A DNA stretch of 40,542 nt, taken from assembly GCA_026990595.1 (NCBI GenBank), contig JALXCZ010000046.1:1-40542 (forward strand), in the 5' to 3' direction. Made by a program: the position numbers and the translations under genes. The stretch comes from Sulfurovum sp. GTDB lineage: Bacteria; Campylobacterota; Campylobacteria; Campylobacterales; Sulfurovaceae. The notes below the pieces were generated by a model that did no database searches, was not told the origin of the DNA, and saw only the letters and a program-made list of their open reading frames with translations. This document shows, piece by piece, positions 19,684 through 40,542 of this stretch (position 1 is its first letter; each line of letters opens with the position of its first letter).

Positions 19684-21483
19684 ATGGATATAAAAGCATA
19701 CTCAGTAGAAGAACTTAGCACATTGGCCGAAAATATCAGACAAAAAATATTGGAAACTGTGAGTAAAAATGGTGGACACTTGAGTTCAACGATGGGTGCC
19801 ACTGATCTTATTGTTGCGATGCATAAAGTATTTGATGCAGGTAAGGATCCTTTTATTTTCGATGTAAGTCACCAGTCCTATGCACATAAACTCCTGACAG
19901 AGAGATGGGATGATTTTGATACTTTACGTCAGTTTGGCGGGATCTCAGGGTATACAAAACCAAGTGAATCTCCGTATGACTATTATGTAGCCGGGCACAG
20001 TTCGACTTCCATCTCATTGGCTGTGGGTGCAGCAAAAGCTATAGCGCTAAAAGGAGAAGATAGGATTCCTATTGCTTTCATAGGAGATGGGAGTATGAGT
20101 GCAGGGATGGTATATGAGGCACTCAATGAGCTGGGAGACAGAAAGTACCCTGTGATCATTATTCTTAATGATAATGAAATGAGTATTGCCAAACCGATCG
20201 GAGCCATTTCCAAACTGCTTTCCCAGACTATGGCAAGTCCGTTTTATCAAAAGTTTAAAACGAAAGTGGAAAAGGTTGTAGATATGATGCCCGAGGGTAC
20301 AAGCTATATAGCCAAACGACTTGAAGAGTCATTTAAACTGATCACACCGGGTATTCTTTTTGAAGAGATGGGTATTGAGTATATTGGTCCGGTAGACGGG
20401 CATAATATCGAAGCTTTAATTGAGACTATGGAAGTAGCAAAATCGCTTAGAAAACCGGTGATCATACATGCACAAACGACAAAAGGCAAAGGGTATGAGA
20501 TCGCTGAAGGGACAAAAGAACATTGGCATGGGGTAAGTGCTTTTGACTTAAAAACAGGAGAAACTCCCAAGAAAACAGGTGCAAAATCAGCCACAGCTAT
20601 TTTTTCGGAAACACTTGTAGCACTTGCAGATGCAGATGAAAAAGTGGTGGGTGTCACTGCTGCCATGCCAAGCGGCACAGGCATGAGTGCAGTGATAGAG
20701 AAATATCCCGAACGTTTTTGGGATGTGGCCATAGCAGAACAGCATGCAGTTGCTTCCATGGGACCGCTCGCCAAAGAGGGATTCAAGCCTTTCTGTACGA
20801 TTTACTCGACTTTCCTGCAACGTGGATATGATCAGGTGATCCATGATATCTGTCTCATGGACTTAGGTGTGGCTTTTGCGATGGATAGAGCAGGGATCGT
20901 TGGTGAAGATGGAGAGACACACCAAGGTGTTTTTGATATCTCTTTTTTACGGGCTATCCCCAATATGACACTTTTGGCTCCTTATAATGAAACAAGCATG
21001 AAAAAAGTGATGGTATTTTCCAAAGGGTATGACCATCCGTGTGCTTTCAGATATCCAAGAGGTGCATTTATAGCCGAAGATGCTGATGTGCCTGATTATG
21101 AATTGGGGGAATCCCATCTTTTAAAAGAGGGGAATAATATACTTTTTATTGGATATGGTAACGGTGTGGGTAGAGCCAAGCAGGTATCTGAGCTTGTCAA
21201 AGCTGATATTGCTATGTTAGATCTGCGTTTTGTAAAACCGTTAGATGAAAAGATGCTGATTGATCTAAGTAAAAAGTATAAAAAGTGGTTTATATTCTCA
21301 GATTCTGTAAAACAAGGTGGTGTAGGCTCAGCAATACTTGAATTTTTAAGCCAAAAACAGATAAAAGATATTTCATTAACTACTTTTGAGTATGATGATG
21401 CCTTTATTACCCATGGCAATACGAAGAAGGTGGAAGAGAGTTTGGGGTTACTTCCTGAGCAATTGGCAAAAAAGATAGTGTAG
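19684..21483 (+). CDS. dxs: 1-deoxy-D-xylulose-5-phosphate synthase
   Basis: DXS condenses pyruvate and glyceraldehyde 3-phosphate with thiamine diphosphate, starting the MEP isoprenoid pathway. The 599-residue length fits the short Campylobacterota form. GHLSSTMGATDL, DVSHQSYAHKLLT, AGHSSTSIS, IGDGSMSAGMVYEALN (thiamine-binding, about 134), YIGPVDGHN and AIAEQHAVASMG are present; these exclude an ordinary transketolase. I take ATG 19684 because an upstream start (19654) lies inside the preceding gene. The stop codon is TAG 21481-21483, which is the TAG of a GTAG repeat. Confidence 0.96.
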   Translation: MDIKAYSVEELSTLAENIRQKILETVSKNGGHLSSTMGATDLIVAMHKVFDAGKDPFIFDVSHQSYAHKLLTERWDDFDTLRQFGGISGYTKPSESPYDYYVAGHSSTSISLAVGAAKAIALKGEDRIPIAFIGDGSMSAGMVYEALNELGDRKYPVIIILNDNEMSIAKPIGAISKLLSQTMASPFYQKFKTKVEKVVDMMPEGTSYIAKRLEESFKLITPGILFEEMGIEYIGPVDGHNIEALIETMEVAKSLRKPVIIHAQTTKGKGYEIAEGTKEHWHGVSAFDLKTGETPKKTGAKSATAIFSETLVALADADEKVVGVTAAMPSGTGMSAVIEKYPERFWDVAIAEQHAVASMGPLAKEGFKPFCTIYSTFLQRGYDQVIHDICLMDLGVAFAMDRAGIVGEDGETHQGVFDISFLRAIPNMTLLAPYNETSMKKVMVFSKGYDHPCAFRYPRGAFIAEDADVPDYELGESHLLKEGNNILFIGYGNGVGRAKQVSELVKADIAMLDLRFVKPLDEKMLIDLSKKYKKWFIFSDSVKQGGVGSAILEFLSQKQIKDISLTTFEYDDAFITHGNTKKVEESLGLLPEQLAKKIV

Positions 21484-21543
21484 GAGCAGACCTACGTGTC
21501 CGCCCTTTGAAGTTGAAGGGTAAACATACAGGTTTACCCCTAC
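21480..21543 (+). repeat. GTAG hairpin pair on dxs stop codon
   Basis: GTAGGAGCAGACC (21480 onward) forms a degraded first hairpin with GTCCGCCC (to 21505). A perfect second hairpin follows: GGGTAAAC (21518-21525), loop ATACAG, GTTTACCC (21532-21539), then CTAC (21540-21543). GTAG at one end and CTAC at the other give an inverted pair. The same element, better preserved and lacking 10 bases of the middle, lies in folC at 34169-34222; both are followed by a G-rATTGGA-like stretch. Confidence 0.8.
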
Positions 21544-26639: not shown

Positions 26640-27452
26640 GTGAAAATAGCTTTTATAGGCGATATAGTTGGTAAACCCGGTCGTTTGATGCTTAAAAAGC
26701 ATTTGAAAAGACTACAGCAAGAGCATTTCATCGACTTTACCATTGCCAATTATGAAAATGCAAGTCATGGCTTTGGACTGACTGAAAAAAATTGTATGGA
26801 ACTGTTGGGTTACGGTGTTGATATGATGACCGGAGGTAACCACAGTTTCGATAAGAAAGAAATATTGGATCTTTTTGATACCTATCCGCTTATCCGTCCC
26901 ATGAACTACCCGCAAGCCACACCTGGAAAAGGTATTTACCAAACCATACTTTTAGACAAGCAAGTCGCTATCCTTAATCTTATGGGGCACTATACCATGC
27001 CTCTGGCAGATAATCCATTTACGATGATCGTCTCGGTTGTTGCTTCCCTCAAAGCTCAGGGTATTAAGCACATTATTATCGATATGCATGCAGAAGCAAG
27101 TTCTGAAAAACAGGCACTTTTACATATGCTTAAAGAGGATGTCTCTGCAATACTTGGAACACATACCCATGTGGCAACGGATGATCTTTATGTAACTGAA
27201 GAAGGGTGCTGTTATGTGACAGATGTAGGACTGACAGGTTGTCGTGACGGTGTTATCGGTATGGACAGCGAAGTCCCTGTAAAACGTTTTCTTACAGGAT
27301 TAAGTGGACATTTTGATGTATCGGATGTGTGTAAAACGCTCTTGCAAATGGTGGTGTTTGAGCTTGATGATGAGGGACGTTGCCTGAGTGCTGAAAAAAT
27401 TAAAATTTATGATGATAAGCCTAAGATTGTTTCTCAGGCATGGATGGATTAG
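26640..27452 (+). CDS. ymdB: YmdB-family metallophosphoesterase
   Basis: A 270-residue protein of the TIGR00282/YmdB family, calcineurin-like phosphodiesterases that hydrolyse 2',3'-cyclic AMP and affect RNA turnover and biofilm choice in Bacillus. Metal-binding motifs in order: FIGDIVGKPGR (first Asp), TIANYENASHGFGLT (Asn-Glu), TGGNHSFDKKEI (GNH), IIIDMHAEASSEK, and ILGTHTHVATDD (two His). The start is GTG 26640, three bases after fabH. It overlaps the convergent dnaX by four bases. Confidence 0.9.
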   Translation: MKIAFIGDIVGKPGRLMLKKHLKRLQQEHFIDFTIANYENASHGFGLTEKNCMELLGYGVDMMTGGNHSFDKKEILDLFDTYPLIRPMNYPQATPGKGIYQTILLDKQVAILNLMGHYTMPLADNPFTMIVSVVASLKAQGIKHIIIDMHAEASSEKQALLHMLKEDVSAILGTHTHVATDDLYVTEEGCCYVTDVGLTGCRDGVIGMDSEVPVKRFLTGLSGHFDVSDVCKTLLQMVVFELDDEGRCLSAEKIKIYDDKPKIVSQAWMD

Positions 27453-29290
27453 GAATTTCTTTTAATTCTTACTTTTTTGGGGTCGAAGAGGGCTATGGCT
27501 TCTTTGATCATAGGTTCTTCAAGAAGTGAAGAGGGGTCTTTCTCTTTAGCTGCTTCTGTTTCTCCTGCTTCGGGTGCGATACAGGAGCTTTTCATCTCGA
27601 CCTCTTCGATCATGGAGCTGCTGTCGGCATCGGTATGTGGGGCATCGACAGGCTCAGCCACCGATTTTATGGGGGTATGGGTAGTTACTTTATTTTCTGC
27701 GGTTGCTGAGTTTGTCGAAGTGTTAACTACTTTTTTTTTAGCGATATTGACTATTTTTGTCTCAAAACCAAAGAGCTCTTTGACAAACATATTAATGAGC
27801 CCCCAATGGGTGATGAGTTGTTTTTTCTCTTCCCCTTCGGCGGTGGACTCCCAAGTGAGTTTCTGTGCTTTAAAAGTAACAAAAGTAATATTCTCTTCAA
27901 AGAGTTTTCCAAGGTCATAATCTCTGTCGTAAATCTTTTTGATGAGAGCAGTAAAGGTTTTTTGATGAGGGTTGGCTTCGACAGGCTCAGCCACTTTATT
28001 CACTTCATCCACTGAACTTATCGAAGTGCTGGTTACTGTATCCTGATCATGGTCAGTCATACTATTCTTATTTTGTATATTGTTTGATTCTTGAACTTCT
28101 GATACTTGAGTCTGCCGAAGGTCATTTTCCTTCTTTTTTGGAAGCGTAGCAACAATCTCATCTTCAGTAATGGTGATCACCTCAGTTTCAGGTTGTTTTG
28201 TCACCATGATCTCGGAGACTTCAACACCTTTGAGTTCTTTCTCCAATCCACGTATCATTGCATCAATATCTTTGATCTCAAGGGCTTCCATCATTTTAAA
28301 GAGTGTGAGTGTCAAGACAAACTCTCCATCGCTTCCCAAAGCAAGCAGTCCTTTGGCATCTGCAATGACCCTGAAAAATCGTTCTATGATCATAGGGGTA
28401 AATTTACTGTTCTGTGTAAGCAGTAACTCTTTAAGATAAAGGGTAAGTTCATCAAGTATCATCTCTGCTTCATAGTCTGCTGCGAGTTTGATGAATGCCA
28501 GTATTTTGCTTTTATCTTTACGGTTAATGTCATCAAGTAATTGCTCAAGAAGAGTGGGTTCTATGATCCCCAACATCCCAGTTATAGTGCTTACATCTAC
28601 GAAGTTTTTCGAGTAGACAATGGCTTGATCCATAAGTGTAAGGGAGTCTCTTAAACTTCCTGCTCCGGAACGTGCAATGATATCTAGAGCCTCTTTTTCA
28701 TATCCGATTTGTTCAAGATTTAAAATATGTTCCAAGTGCTTAAGTACAAGATTCTGAGGGATCTTTTTAAAGCGAAAATGCTGTGTCCGTGAAAGGATGG
28801 TTGCAGGTAGTTTCAGAGGATCGGTCGTAGCTAAGATGAATTTGACGAAATCAGGAGGCTCCTCAAGGGTTTTAAGCAATGCATTAAAAGCTTGATTGGT
28901 CAGCATATGGACTTCATCGATAATAAAGATTTTATACCGTGCAGAGCTTGGTTTGTATTTGGTATGTTCTATAAGATCTTTAATGTCATCGATCCCGCGA
29001 TTGGAAGCAGCGTCCATCTCAATGATGTCCATATGACGATTCTCTGCAGCCATGATACAATGGGTACAGGTGCCGCAAGGATGGGATGTTGTTCCCTTTT
29101 CACAAAGCAGAGCTTTGGCAAAGATGCGAGCTGTAGAAGTTTTCCCTGAGCCTCTTAGACCTGAGAAAAGATAGGCATGAGAGAGCCGGTTGCCATCAAG
29201 TGCAAGAGATAAAGTTTGAGAGACTGCCTCTTGACCGATAAGATCATCAAATGTAGCAGGTCTATATTTTCTTGCAAGGGCTAATGACAC
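27449..29290 (-). CDS. dnaX: DNA polymerase III subunits gamma and tau
   Basis: DnaX is the clamp-loader motor. The 613-residue product has Walker A FSGLRGSGKTSTARIFAKAL (about 43-62), a four-Cys zinc site (CEKGTTSHPCGTCTHC), Walker B IIDEVHMLTNQAFNALLKTLEEPP and the SRC-like LSRTQHFRF (sensor 1 region), then domain III to about residue 365. After that comes a long low-complexity linker and a C-terminal tau part. The slippery A-AAA-AAG site at 28139-28133 (Lys codons 385-386) is followed in the -1 frame by GAA GGA AAA TGA, which would give a 389-residue gamma. Two inverted-repeat elements code for the VAEPVEA and VAEPVDA segments of the linker. The start is GTG 29290 after AGGAGA. Confidence 0.95.
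   Translation of the reverse strand: MSLALARKYRPATFDDLIGQEAVSQTLSLALDGNRLSHAYLFSGLRGSGKTSTARIFAKALLCEKGTTSHPCGTCTHCIMAAENRHMDIIEMDAASNRGIDDIKDLIEHTKYKPSSARYKIFIIDEVHMLTNQAFNALLKTLEEPPDFVKFILATTDPLKLPATILSRTQHFRFKKIPQNLVLKHLEHILNLEQIGYEKEALDIIARSGAGSLRDSLTLMDQAIVYSKNFVDVSTITGMLGIIEPTLLEQLLDDINRKDKSKILAFIKLAADYEAEMILDELTLYLKELLLTQNSKFTPMIIERFFRVIADAKGLLALGSDGEFVLTLTLFKMMEALEIKDIDAMIRGLEKELKGVEVSEIMVTKQPETEVITITEDEIVATLPKKKENDLRQTQVSEVQESNNIQNKNSMTDHDQDTVTSTSISSVDEVNKVAEPVEANPHQKTFTALIKKIYDRDYDLGKLFEENITFVTFKAQKLTWESTAEGEEKKQLITHWGLINMFVKELFGFETKIVNIAKKKVVNTSTNSATAENKVTTHTPIKSVAEPVDAPHTDADSSSMIEEVEMKSSCIAPEAGETEAAKEKDPSSLLEEPMIKEAIALFDPKKVRIKRNS
27643..27720 (-). repeat. CTTCGACAGGCTCAG inverted-repeat element in dnaX, copy A
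   Basis: CATCGACAGGCTCAG (27643-27657) and CTGAGTTTGTCGAAG (27706-27720) are inverted copies of one 15-base motif, 48 bases apart, all within the dnaX frame. The reading on the coding strand includes STNSATAEN and KSVAEPVDA. It lies in the tau linker, where an insertion would be tolerated. Confidence 0.75.
27976..28026 (-). repeat. CTTCGACAGGCTCAG inverted-repeat element in dnaX, copy B
   Basis: CTTCGACAGGCTCAG (27976-27990) and CTGAACTTATCGAAG (28012-28026) are inverted copies 21 bases apart. The coding strand reads SISSVDEVNKVAEPVEA. The copy matches element A in both arms, in order and orientation. A more diverged relative (CTTGAGTCTGCCGAAG) may lie at about 28105-28120. Confidence 0.75.
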
Positions 29291-32975: not shown

Positions 32976-33515
32976 TTGAAGCGGATACAAAATATTTTAA
33001 AACAATTTCTACCCTCTACCCTCTACCCTCTACTCGCTATCATGACAATGGTCATGATTTCAGCCTGTGGCTACAAACCCTCTTCTCATATGATCAAACA
33101 ACTGTTTACAGACAGTGTGTATGTAGAAGTCATAGTAGACAGGGCAGAACCGGAAAATGCGCCATTTGTAAAAGATGAAATGAATCGTCTGGTTTATACA
33201 CGTTTTAAAGGACGAATCGTTCCAAAAGCTCAGGCGGAGAGTCAAATACGTATTGCCTACAGCGGCAGTACATTTACACCTCTTGCTTATGAAGACGGAT
33301 ATGTAACACGTTATCGTGCCAATATCAAAGTCCGTTTTGATATGATAACCAAAAAGGGTAGAATGACAAAAAATATCTCTACTATTTTTGAATCCGATAT
33401 CCAAGCCAGTTCACTAGCCTCTTCTACACTCCGAACAGAAGCAATACGTAAAGGATTGGAGAAAGCGTTGGATGAATTTTTGGCATATGTAAGTGCGAAG
33501 TCAGTAAGCAGGTAA
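32976..33515 (+). CDS. lptE: LPS-assembly lipoprotein LptE-like
   Basis: A 179-residue lipoprotein. Starting at TTG 32976 (AAAGGA six bases upstream) it has a basic n-region, a hydrophobic core (LYPLLAIMTMVMISACG) and the lipidated Cys at about 30 followed by GYKPSS, which is the mature start of LptE proteins. LptE plugs the LptD barrel that puts LPS in the outer membrane. It sits between leuS and folC, as lptE follows leuS in E. coli. A heptamer repeat array (33009-33036) codes for part of the signal-peptide core. Confidence 0.8.
   Translation: MKRIQNILKQFLPSTLYPLLAIMTMVMISACGYKPSSHMIKQLFTDSVYVEVIVDRAEPENAPFVKDEMNRLVYTRFKGRIVPKAQAESQIRIAYSGSTFTPLAYEDGYVTRYRANIKVRFDMITKKGRMTKNISTIFESDIQASSLASSTLRTEAIRKGLEKALDEFLAYVSAKSVSR
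33009..33036 (+). repeat. CTACCCT heptamer array in lptE signal peptide
   Basis: Three perfect CTACCCT units (33009-33029) plus a diverged fourth CTACTCG (33030-33036). On the protein level they give PSTLYPLLA in the hydrophobic core. Seven is not a multiple of three, so gain or loss of one unit would shift the frame. Confidence 0.85.
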
Positions 33516-33534
33516 CAGTGAGCAGTGAGCAGTT
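33496..33534 (+). repeat. Purine-rich repeats at lptE end / folC start
   Basis: AAGTCAGTAAGCAGGTAAC and AGTGAGCAGTGAGCAG run across the lptE stop and the folC GTG start (33518). The core GCAGGTAACAG recurs before the last gene (about 38694). The lptE C-terminus (KSVSR) and folC N-terminus (MSSEQLK) are both inside the repeats. Confidence 0.55.
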
Positions 33535-34705
33535 AAAAAAGTTTTTAAACTCTAAACCTCTTTATTATAAAGAGATAGACCATGAGCGTGTACATATTGC
33601 TTACGGGATGCTCAAACCCTATATCAGACGACCAAAAACCGTACATATTGTGGGTACCAACGGTAAAGGCTCTACCGGAAGGATGATCGCATACCTTGCC
33701 TATCGGCAAGGAGTCAGAAGTGAGGAGTCAGAAGGTAGAAATTATAGTGTTGGTCATTACTCTTCGCCGCATATTCTGAAATTTAATGAACGTATCTGGA
33801 TAGATGGGCATGATGCATCTGATGAGGTACTTGAAGAGGCACATCAACGGCTTTTTGGCTTTTTGGGTAAAGAGATGAGTGATGCACTGAGCTATTTTGA
33901 ATACACGACACTTTTGGCTTTTGTAGTATTTGAGAATTGTGGTCTTATGGTACTTGAAGCAGGGCTCGGGGGTGAGTTTGATGCAACGAATGTTTGTGAT
34001 AAAGAGCTTACTGTCATTACCCCTATAGGTATAGACCATCAGGCATTTTTGGGTAATACGATTGAGCAGATCGCTGCAACGAAGATACGTAGTATTCAAA
34101 CGCAGGCATTGTTGGCACCACAACCTTATGAAAAGGTGGTTGAGGTGGCAAAAGAGATTGCAAGGGATGTAGGGGCAGACCTATGTGTCTGCCCAAAGGT
34201 CAACACACGGGTTGACCCCTACGGATTGGAAAAAATAGCCGAAGCCAAAGGTTGGGGAGACTACCTTGTAGACAATGCTACAATAGCTTTAAAGTCACTT
34301 GATATCTTAAATATACAATATGATATCAATGATTTAAAATCTTTAGAACTCTTTGGACGTTTTTATGCACTGACTCCTAATATTCGTATTGATGTAGGAC
34401 ACAATCCTTTAGCGGCATTTGCTATAGAAAAAGCCTTAGATGAAAAAGTAGTACTTGTTTATAACTCTTTGGATGACAAGGATTATGAAGAGGTGCTGCG
34501 AATACTTAAACCAAAAGTAAAACGTGTGGAGATCATTAAAATCGATTCACAGCGTGCAACAACTTTAGAAGAGATAGAAAAAGCGTTGCAAACCGTAGGT
34601 TTGGAATATAGTTATTTTAAGAATGAGATAAAAGAAGATGAAAATTATTTGGTTTTTGGTTCCTTTTATGTGGTTGAAGCATTTTTAAAACAAAGAAATA
34701 CGTAG
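33518..34705 (+). CDS. folC: Folylpolyglutamate / dihydrofolate synthase
   Basis: FolC adds glutamate to dihydropteroate or folate. The 395-residue protein has VHIVGTNGKGSTGRMIAYL (Walker A-like, about 42-60), VGHYSSPHILKFNERI, VLEAGLGGEFDATN, ITPIGIDHQAFLGNTI and DVGHNPLAAFAIEKAL. Two extra blocks are probably repeat insertions: the purine-rich segment (33711-33740) that codes RSEESEGR, and an exact 54-base GTAG hairpin element (34169-34222, 18 codons). Both keep the frame. The stop is the TAG of a third repeat at 34702. The start is GTG 33518 within another repeat. Confidence 0.9.
   Translation: MSSEQLKKFLNSKPLYYKEIDHERVHIAYGMLKPYIRRPKTVHIVGTNGKGSTGRMIAYLAYRQGVRSEESEGRNYSVGHYSSPHILKFNERIWIDGHDASDEVLEEAHQRLFGFLGKEMSDALSYFEYTTLLAFVVFENCGLMVLEAGLGGEFDATNVCDKELTVITPIGIDHQAFLGNTIEQIAATKIRSIQTQALLAPQPYEKVVEVAKEIARDVGADLCVCPKVNTRVDPYGLEKIAEAKGWGDYLVDNATIALKSLDILNIQYDINDLKSLELFGRFYALTPNIRIDVGHNPLAAFAIEKALDEKVVLVYNSLDDKDYEEVLRILKPKVKRVEIIKIDSQRATTLEEIEKALQTVGLEYSYFKNEIKEDENYLVFGSFYVVEAFLKQRNT
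33711..33740 (+). repeat. Purine-rich insertion inside folC
   Basis: AGTCAGAAGTGAGGAGTCAG-like purine-rich sequence codes SEESEGR between YLAYRQG and NYSVGHYSSPH. In other FolC proteins the helix here leads directly to the YSSPH-type loop (general family knowledge), so this is likely an in-frame repeat insertion. Confidence 0.5.
34169..34222 (+). repeat. GTAG hairpin pair inserted in folC, 54 bp in frame
   Basis: GTAG, then GGGCAGAC (34173-34180), loop CTATGT, GTCTGCCC (34187-34194), AAA, GGTCAAC (34198-34204), loop ACACGG, GTTGACC (34211-34217), C and CTAC (34219-34222). Both stems are perfect (8 and 7 bp). The element is exactly 18 codons and starts on the first base of a codon, reading VGADLCVCPKVNTRVDPY. 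It matches the element on the dxs stop at 21480. Confidence 0.85.
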
Positions 34706-34799
34706 GGTGTTGTCCCACGACAACACCATTAGTTGGAATATGATGAAAATTTAAAATTGTTATTTAAATATGTGGTGTTGTAATGGTACAACACCCTAT
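34702..34799 (+). repeat. GTAG hairpin pair between folC and mfd
   Basis: GTAG (34702-34705), with its TAG as the folC stop, then GGTGTTGT (34706-34713), loop CCCACG, ACAACACC (34720-34727). After 46 AT-rich bases comes the inverted arm GGTGTTGT (34774-34781), loop AATGGT, ACAACACC (34788-34795) and CTAT (34796-34799, one base off CTAC). Both stems are perfect 8-bp pairs. Confidence 0.8.
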
Positions 34800-38675: not shown

Positions 38676-38714
38676 GGATGCAAGCAGCAAGGAGCAGGTA
38701 ACAGGTGAACAGAG
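38676..38714 (+). repeat. Purine-rich repeats before last gene
   Basis: GCAGGATGCAAGCAGC, AAGGAGCAGGTAACAGGTG and AACAGAGAGAG fill the 35-base gap and run into the GTG start at 38705. The AGCAGGTAACAG core is shared with the folC start region. Confidence 0.5.
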
Positions 38715-40542
38715 AGAGTAAGATCAGTATAGGTATATTGCTCATTGGATTATTGGTAATCGCAGGGTATTGGTTTATGCCGCAAGAGAGTTCTACAGTA
38801 AAGCATTTAAAGTCAAAAGTATCTGTTGAAGAACGGGTTATTTTACCGCAGTATGAAAAGAATATCTATCAAAATATACCAGAAGTACAGAGCTATTTGT
38901 CAGATATCAAAGCAATGATCAAAAAGGGACAGGCTGTTCTTCCTCTGCAAAACAGTGAACTGGATAGTCAAGCCCAAGAAGTACAAAAAATTCTGCTTCA
39001 AAATGCAGATTTTCTTAAAGATACCAGACAAGGAAACAAACTTCTGCATAACGATATGATGCGTATTCTACCTGCTATTGTTAGTACATTGAATAAAAAA
39101 GCACAAAAAGTGTGTCAGGATCACAGCTGCTATCAGGCAGAGAAGTACAACTTTGTCACCAACACGACTACTAGAGCAGTAGTCGATACCGATGCAGGTC
39201 AAGTGCTCTTGGTAGAGCGTTACCCGGGGATGCAGCCTGATATCTCGTTACGTCTGACACATATTGCCCAGACCATTGCCCTGCATGCACCTGAAGTTAA
39301 AAAGGAATTGGGTTTTACGCCTGCGAAAAAAGATATCACTATGGCAAATGTCAGGGGAACCATGAAAGAGTCCCCATGTGAAAACAGTGATCACCTCTGC
39401 GTGGCTCCTACCTTCTCCGACCATGAAAAAGAGCAGGCACTTTGGGCAGTGGTGGATCTGACAGAGTTAAAACTTGCAGCTGCCAAATGGGCTGGTTTGG
39501 GTAAGACAACGACGCCTGCGTGTATCAGTGAACGAAGTTTGCAAAACCGTTATATTATGAAAAACTTTTGTCAAAAGAACAGTGTGCTGGAAAAGAACGG
39601 CTGGAAGATCACCTACCGACTGACAGGTTCGGATGGATTGGAGATCCGTGATGTTTTTTTCAAAGGTATGCCTGTAGTCACCTCTGCCAAGATCGTGGAT
39701 TGGCATGTAAGCTATCAGCAAAAAGGCGGAGAGAAGTTAGATACCAGTACAGAAACTTACATAGAAGGCAGAAGGGTAGAGTTTGTTCGGGGAGAAGACG
39801 GCAACTATCTCTTTGGTTACAACGATGCGATGGGATGTCCGCTTTTTTCTACCTCTGTTGTCTTAGCTTTTAACGGTCCTCAGGTAAGAGCGCTTAAAAA
39901 TGGAGATGGTTTTATGCTTACACAGGATTTCCGTAACCCGAAATGGCCAATGGCATGTAACTATCGTTATGAGAACCGTTTTGAGTTCTATGATGACGGT
40001 TCTTTTAGAGTAGTAGGCGTAAATAAAGGTAGAGGGTGTGGTGACAATGCAATCTACCGACCGGTCATGCGTATTGATATGGCGCTGGGAAAGAAAGAGA
40101 ATCTTTACAGCTATGACGGCAGTTGGAAACTTTGGGAGAAGGAAGGTAGCGAGTTTGTAGGTCGGGGTGCCCCCACCCCGACAATATCGACAGATAAATA
40201 CCCATACAAAATAGTCTCTGCTACCAATGAAAACAAGGGCTACTATATCGAGCCAAACCACGGGCAGTTTGGTGATAACAGCAGAGGAGACCATGCGACA
40301 CTCTTTGCCACTAAGTTCAAAGAGAATGAAGGCGATAAAGACCTGCTTACTTTGGGTTCATGTTGTGACCTGAAAGCAGATGGAGTAGAGCGTTACATAG
40401 AAAAACCGGAAAACATTGAGGGTGAACATGTGGTACTGTGGTATGTTCCCCGCATCCGTAATGATGCAAAAAAGGGAGAGGAGTACTGCTGGGCAGATAC
40501 GGTCATTGGAGATGACGGCAATCTTCATGTCAAAGTGTGGCC
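38705..40542 (+). CDS. Membrane-anchored copper amine oxidase-like protein, cut by right edge
   Basis: An open frame from GTG 38705 runs without a stop to the right edge (more than 610 codons). Residues 8-25 form one membrane helix (ISIGILLIGLLVIAGYWF), so the rest is periplasmic. Around residue 415-435 the motif NYRYENRFEFYDDGSF resembles the copper amine oxidase block NYD/EYxFxFxxDG, whose Tyr becomes the topaquinone cofactor; the upstream Thr is replaced by Met and the D/E after Tyr by Arg. GSDGLEIRDVFFKGMPVV also matches the family's GLVLRDVRY block. The copper His ligands lie partly outside the window. A GTAG hairpin (40157) is in frame. An oxidase function is unproven. Confidence 0.65.
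   Translation, partial: MNRESKISIGILLIGLLVIAGYWFMPQESSTVKHLKSKVSVEERVILPQYEKNIYQNIPEVQSYLSDIKAMIKKGQAVLPLQNSELDSQAQEVQKILLQNADFLKDTRQGNKLLHNDMMRILPAIVSTLNKKAQKVCQDHSCYQAEKYNFVTNTTTRAVVDTDAGQVLLVERYPGMQPDISLRLTHIAQTIALHAPEVKKELGFTPAKKDITMANVRGTMKESPCENSDHLCVAPTFSDHEKEQALWAVVDLTELKLAAAKWAGLGKTTTPACISERSLQNRYIMKNFCQKNSVLEKNGWKITYRLTGSDGLEIRDVFFKGMPVVTSAKIVDWHVSYQQKGGEKLDTSTETYIEGRRVEFVRGEDGNYLFGYNDAMGCPLFSTSVVLAFNGPQVRALKNGDGFMLTQDFRNPKWPMACNYRYENRFEFYDDGSFRVVGVNKGRGCGDNAIYRPVMRIDMALGKKENLYSYDGSWKLWEKEGSEFVGRGAPTPTISTDKYPYKIVSATNENKGYYIEPNHGQFGDNSRGDHATLFATKFKENEGDKDLLTLGSCCDLKADGVERYIEKPENIEGEHVVLWYVPRIRNDAKKGEEYCWADTVIGDDGNLHVKVW
40157..40182 (+). repeat. GTAG hairpin inside the last gene
   Basis: GTAG (40157-40160) then GTCGGGGTG (40161-40169), loop CCCC, CACCCCGAC (40174-40182), a perfect 9-bp stem. 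The first 16 bases equal the left arm at 6507. The frame reads VGRGAPTPT and is kept open. Only one arm is present, not a pair. Confidence 0.8.

Follow-up and report, generated by a model that had tools for sequence, protein, structure and literature searches.

A FolC loop repeatedly overwritten by short repeats in the genus Sulfurovum

The folC gene and its in-frame REP pair

The window, that is, the whole stretch of 40,542 nucleotides that was analysed, carries a folC gene with GTAG-type REP units and heptad-like repeats within and around it. The features are as follows.

21480..21543, plus strand: sister extragenic REP pair of the same family as the folC element (family A); its GTAG forms the TAG stop of dxs
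33502..33533, plus strand: heptad-like array (GTGAGCA)n from the end of the lptE-like gene to the folC start, coding for the N-terminus VSSEQ
33518..34705, plus strand: folC, a GTG-started ORF of 395 residues whose TAG stop is supplied by a REP
33710..33740, plus strand: second repeat-bearing FolC loop, heptad-like GGAGTCAGAAGTGAGGAGTCAGAAGGTAGAA, residues 65-75
34169..34222, plus strand: in-frame REP pair, FolC residues 218-235, with a predicted strand (221-224) and a loop up to helix 237-244
34169..34194, plus strand: left GTAG REP unit, family A, 8-bp stem and 6-nt loop
34198..34222, minus strand: right GTAG REP unit, inverted, GTAGGGGTCAACCCGTGTGTTGACC
34702..34727, plus strand: family E GTAG REP, GTAGGGTGTTGT..ACAACACC, which supplies the folC stop
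34774..34799, minus strand: the family E REP's inverted partner, with its tag eroded from GTAG to ATAG

The second loop, the eroded partner and the (GTGAGCA)n array are read from the sequence. The second loop, which follows YLAY, is filled with heptads in 11/68 relatives by a strict test. A TCTACCC heptad array also occurs at 33008-33035, near the N-terminus of the LptE-like ORF directly upstream of folC, and may precede the true start of that ORF.

The gene product is identified as FolC by TIGR01499 (265 bits, cut-off 162.65), and it is the only FolC found in its own genome (one match). An alignment-based AF2 model (pLDDT 86, pTM 0.88) has an FPGS-like fold, with H. pylori FPGS (PDB entry 6k8c) as the best PDB match (Z 40.4). 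In this model residues 221-224 form a strand, residues 225-236 a loop and residues 237-244 the next helix. The earlier note had proposed mapping the insert on a FolC structure to see whether it falls in a surface loop. The loop 225-236 is found, and the strand 221-224 is REP-coded as well; the REP is predicted to supply a β-strand of FolC.

The 54-bp element consists of two GTAG-type REP hairpins in inverted orientation, GTAGGGGCAGACCTATGTGTCTGCCC-AAAG-GTCAACACACGGGTTGACCCCTAC (contiguous form GTAGGGGCAGACCTATGTGTCTGCCCAAAGGTCAACACACGGGTTGACCCCTAC). Both hairpins are perfect, with stems of 8 bp and 7 bp and loops of 6 nt each. The element encodes the 18 residues VGADLCVCPKVNTRVDPY (codons 218-235) and starts exactly at codon 218. 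The ORF and the fold bear out the description in the earlier note of two perfect hairpins covering exactly 18 codons from a codon boundary. Its wording of an exact 54-bp palindromic element holds for the inverted pair and not for a single perfect palindrome, since the outer arms are 75% complementary. Folded as single-stranded DNA, the element reaches -14.6 kcal/mol, compared with -6.95 (sd 2.08) for shuffles (z -3.7). The GTAG tag is present at 34169 and, on the minus strand, at 34222, and is unpaired in the predicted fold. Stems and loops lie within the ranges given for GTAG-tagged REPs (stem 5-13 bp, loop 2-20 nt; PMC3733652), and the tag is GTAG rather than the CGTC of the Rickettsia RPE CGTC type. 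The paired inverted structure makes the element a candidate REPIN.

Copies of the element and a RAYT gene in the same genome

Single REP units, not full pairs, were used for counting. The left unit has 15 matches in the 2.05-Mb genome with up to three mismatches and 11 with up to one, while its reversed control pattern has 0 matches there; the chance expectation for the left unit in the window is 0.00. A strict full-length search (GTAGGGG..CCCCTAC) matched only the folC copy, because the pairs vary in arms and spacing. Outside folC the genome has at least 10 more copies of the arm, including the one at the dxs stop. The earlier note would have given up its reading had the sequence occurred nowhere else in the genome; its view of a mobile GTAG-type REP that is not a native FolC motif holds, and the sister copy it placed at the dxs stop is there, with the GTAG supplying the TAG. 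REPs also lie immediately after dxs in three other genomes (G008, G012 and G013).

In a 438-kb sample of stretches from the genome, genuine GTAG hairpins are mostly intergenic, including most family A and family E units. REP pairs occur at several loci, and GTAG is used as a stop at dxs, folC and other ORFs. The family E REP at the folC stop also flanks a RAYT gene and sits within folC of genome G067 (L084). This RAYT gene (L047, contig C52 of G000, about 55.3-56.1 kb) has GTAGGGTGTTGT..ACAACACC pairs on both sides. It encodes a REP-associated tyrosine transposase (NF047646, 138 bits, cut-off 80), and its stop codon is supplied by a family E REP. A RAYT gene with family A REPs at its flanks was not found in this genome.

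Repeats in the FolC loop across the genus

The FolC genes came from 66 loci in 78 genomes of the same genus, and further ones were added from named records, mostly 'Sulfurovum sp.' MAGs; many of the sampled genomes are fragmented MAGs. The 18 residues are absent from most orthologues, so the same 18 residues are not carried by all of them, the outcome that would have counted against the earlier note. Its expectation that orthologues lack the residues is right in this respect, but the site is not empty. Repeat-free orthologues have about 16 other residues there, e.g. EKGAKLYLSKCPSERVTQ in L028. The aligned region is ITEEKGAKLYLSKCPSERVTQLGVIA in L028 and IARDVGADLCVCPKVNTRVDPYGLEKIA in the window, and the REP codons for VGADLCV stand where the native KGAxLxL strand is. 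Because relatives have about 16 other residues at the site, the REP replaced a segment: about 16 native codons were exchanged for 18 REP codons, a net gain of about 2 residues and not a plain insertion of 18.

Loop DNA was read in 68 FolC genes from the genus and its close relatives, with types assigned by hand and weak cases labelled by eye. By this annotation the loop contains recognisable repeats in about 39/68 genes, and these belong to eight or more unrelated families:

family A REP pairs: 11 genes
family B, GTAGGGGCAACCCTTGTGGTTGCCC: 5 genes, one decayed
four further GTAG types: L023; L021 and L054; L084; L075
single hairpin GTCGGGG..CCCCGAC-CTAC: 3 genes, and also L122, from outside the genus set
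another GTAG pair: L110
GTGGGCA..TGCCCAC: L044
CTTCGACAAGCTCAG-type repeats (CTTCGACA..GCTCAG): 4 genes
heptanucleotide arrays: 8 genes, with 3 others in more distant relatives
CGTC-like pair with an ACCCACT array: one gene, L083

By a strict automatic test, hairpins of at least 8 bp occur in 20/68 loops and in 10/485 control folC windows (p 5e-13), and heptads in 6/68 loops and 1/485 control windows (p 2e-5). With a GC-filtered hairpin rule the loop scores 18/68, while the Dxs control gene scores 5/540 windows, and 0/540 for heptads. Two AT-rich hairpins that pass the automatic test, in L035 and L082, are probably due to chance. Counted by hand, 16/16 family A and B elements lie at the KGA position, compared with 0/10 of the other hairpin elements, which are further downstream. 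Family A occupies the identical codon position in its 11 genes. In L053, GTAGGGGCAG is joined to TCCTTCGACAAGCTCA, which gives the loop a mosaic look, and L037 has a decayed REP copy.

A tree of 109 FolC genes, built with both loops left out, requires at least 34 changes of repeat type, though many of its inner branches are weak. Well-supported (starred) sister pairs carry differing families, e.g. L017/L052, L036/L075, L093/L110 and L024/L038. L019 and L050 are 91.5% identical outside the loops, and the former has a CTTCGACA repeat and the latter a family A pair. Among the sampled genomes, no two strains were found whose folC genes are nearly identical except for the presence of the REP. The repeats in the loop follow the local supply. 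Family A is present in folC of 9/19 genomes that have A elsewhere and of 1/48 that lack it elsewhere (Fisher p 1.8e-5). Family D occurs in folC of two genomes, G068 and G013, which are the two D-richest of the 78 (19 and 9 matches), and 3/5 genomes with family B in folC hold further B copies. The FolC loop has been overwritten repeatedly by short repeats that are abundant in each genome of the genus. The earlier note was correct about the REP pair and missed this recurrent landing site for many unrelated repeats.

Other enzymes show in-frame repeats as well. HisH and RibD of the genome to which the window belongs contain in-frame GTAG units. In about half of 30 genomes the HisH loop between GWNELF and LF.GL is occupied by REPs resembling A or B, by CTTCGACA repeats or by heptads, and the remainder have a shorter native loop. 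RibD has a VGRG.L.PT unit at one fixed place in about 7/30 genomes. In Dxs, CTTCGACA repeats are found at residues 515-517 in two genomes, G014 and G018. Some of the Dxs matches L249, L253, L268 and L269 in relatives have a stop codon within the aligned range, near the ends.

Origin of the loop sequence and relation to known systems

We consider it probable (about 0.78) that a GTAG-type REP pair was copied in frame into a variable FolC loop that is a site of repeated repeat capture. That species acquired ready-made folC segments from one another by homologous recombination, with no fresh repeat capture, is an unlikely account of the whole pattern. The position common to the genes and the patchy tree support would suit it, but it predicts neither the match to each genome's own repeats nor the like behaviour of HisH, RibD and Dxs. 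Segment transfer could explain some of the patchiness. Rather less probable is retention of the hairpins for a function of the folC mRNA or protein, such as pausing, folding or regulation. Many copies retain intact stems, and several enzymes have similar loops filled, which speaks for it, but many species have no hairpin at the site or have a heptad array that forms none, and decayed copies exist (L037). We give slightly less credence still to a single ancient REP insertion that was passed on by vertical descent and has vanished or decayed in many lineages. The single codon shared by family A in 11 genes speaks for it; against it, family A requires 9 changes on the tree, at least 3 of them forced by starred branches, unrelated families occur in close sisters, and presence tracks the REP content of each genome. 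A native FolC motif or an assembly artefact is contradicted by the copies outside folC and by independent assemblies, including named Sulfurovum records, and with nothing found in its favour it can be dismissed.

The FolC loop (about residues 216-240, from a core helix to the next helix) tolerates foreign sequence, and selection would keep only those events that leave an open frame and a working enzyme. For GTAG REPs, GTA-GGx (Val-Gly) is the register that can be used, since a TAG stop arises in the next one. REP units may spread by REP-associated transposase activity or by template switching. Elements of families A and B are invariably found where native folC has AAA-GGT/G-GCA (the KGA codons), a sequence that has GG-GCA in common with GTA GGG GCA. 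Template switching at this microhomology would both replace the native segment and fix the codon register. The same pattern would be expected if selection favoured a strand-like VGAxLxV, and the data do not distinguish between these accounts. The REP-coded peptide is most likely near neutral, its first residues standing in for the native strand. The mosaic look of L053 favours recombination-like copying. RAYT-driven REP mobility is plausible in this genome, because the RAYT gene lies between pairs of family E, which also provides the folC stop and occurs within folC of G067. RAYT cannot be the whole mechanism, since it is not known to mobilise heptads or CTTCGACA repeats, which need another route.

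GTAG REPs in ORFs outside Rickettsia are already published, and so a GTAG-type REP adding a peptide to a protein, which the earlier note would call notable in a core folate enzyme, is not new in itself. The GTAG-tagged REP superfamily with intragenic units was described by Di Nocera, De Gregorio and Rocco (2013, PMC3733652), who describe both GTAG and CGTC REPs lying in frame within genes, name Sulfurovum sp. NBC37-1 as holding GTAG and CGTC repeats, report different REPs at about one site in recB of two Xanthomonas species, and class R. conorii RPE-4/6 as CGTC-tagged. The elements here share the GTAG tag, short stem-loops, inverted pairs, TAG stops from GTAG and in-frame units in ORFs with that superfamily. 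They differ in that one essential-enzyme loop is involved, with many families including non-REPs, genus-wide and with the native segment replaced, and in that several other enzymes behave likewise. The main text of PMC3733652 does not mention FolC. Rickettsia palindromic elements (RPE) are alike in encoding peptides within functional proteins, but belong to a different sequence class, whereas the elements here carry the GTAG tag and turn up at a single site in different species. In REPINs, two REPs in inverted orientation form a pair that RAYTs move (Bertels and Rainey 2011, PMC3116915). The two inverted REPs in one 54-bp unit and the RAYT with flanking REP pairs resemble that system, but the RAYT here is flanked by family E and not by family A. 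The literature on heptanucleotide repeats in coding sequence and on REPs in protein loops yielded nothing closer than PMC3733652, and no account was found there of a folC loop serving as a hot spot throughout a genus, or of a site supplied by several unrelated classes of repeat. The new part appears to be the repeated colonisation of one essential enzyme loop by many repeat families across a genus.

These observations tie extragenic repeats directly to the evolution of core enzymes, with 'junk' repeats continuing to supply pieces of essential proteins of this kind. One loop, replaced independently many times, can be traced in dozens of species, so that the old question of the entry and retention of coding palindromes becomes testable by comparison and by simple complementation. 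They also carry a warning that peptides common to unrelated proteins of such genomes may be repeat-derived. More tentatively, and with less than even odds, core-enzyme loops of Sulfurovum may be long-term docking sites for dispersed repeats, and GTAG REPs, pre-adapted by a stop-free sense register and, for families A and B, by standing in for the native FolC strand, may be portable coding modules that shape essential proteins.

Separately, repeats were also seen in frame at other sites. A dnaX-like ORF at 27449-29290 on the minus strand (DNA polymerase III gamma/tau) has a CTTCGACAGGCTCAG repeat in frame at 27976-27990, near residue 434. At 40157-40182, GTAGGTCGGGGTGCCCCCACCCCGAC is in frame (VGRGAPTPT) in an ORF at 38705-40542 that runs off the contig end and matches no family above cut-off. 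A CTACCCA heptad array lies in frame at G000:C8:98405-98434 (the L169/L170 junction), just before SHNPS of a phosphomannomutase-like protein.
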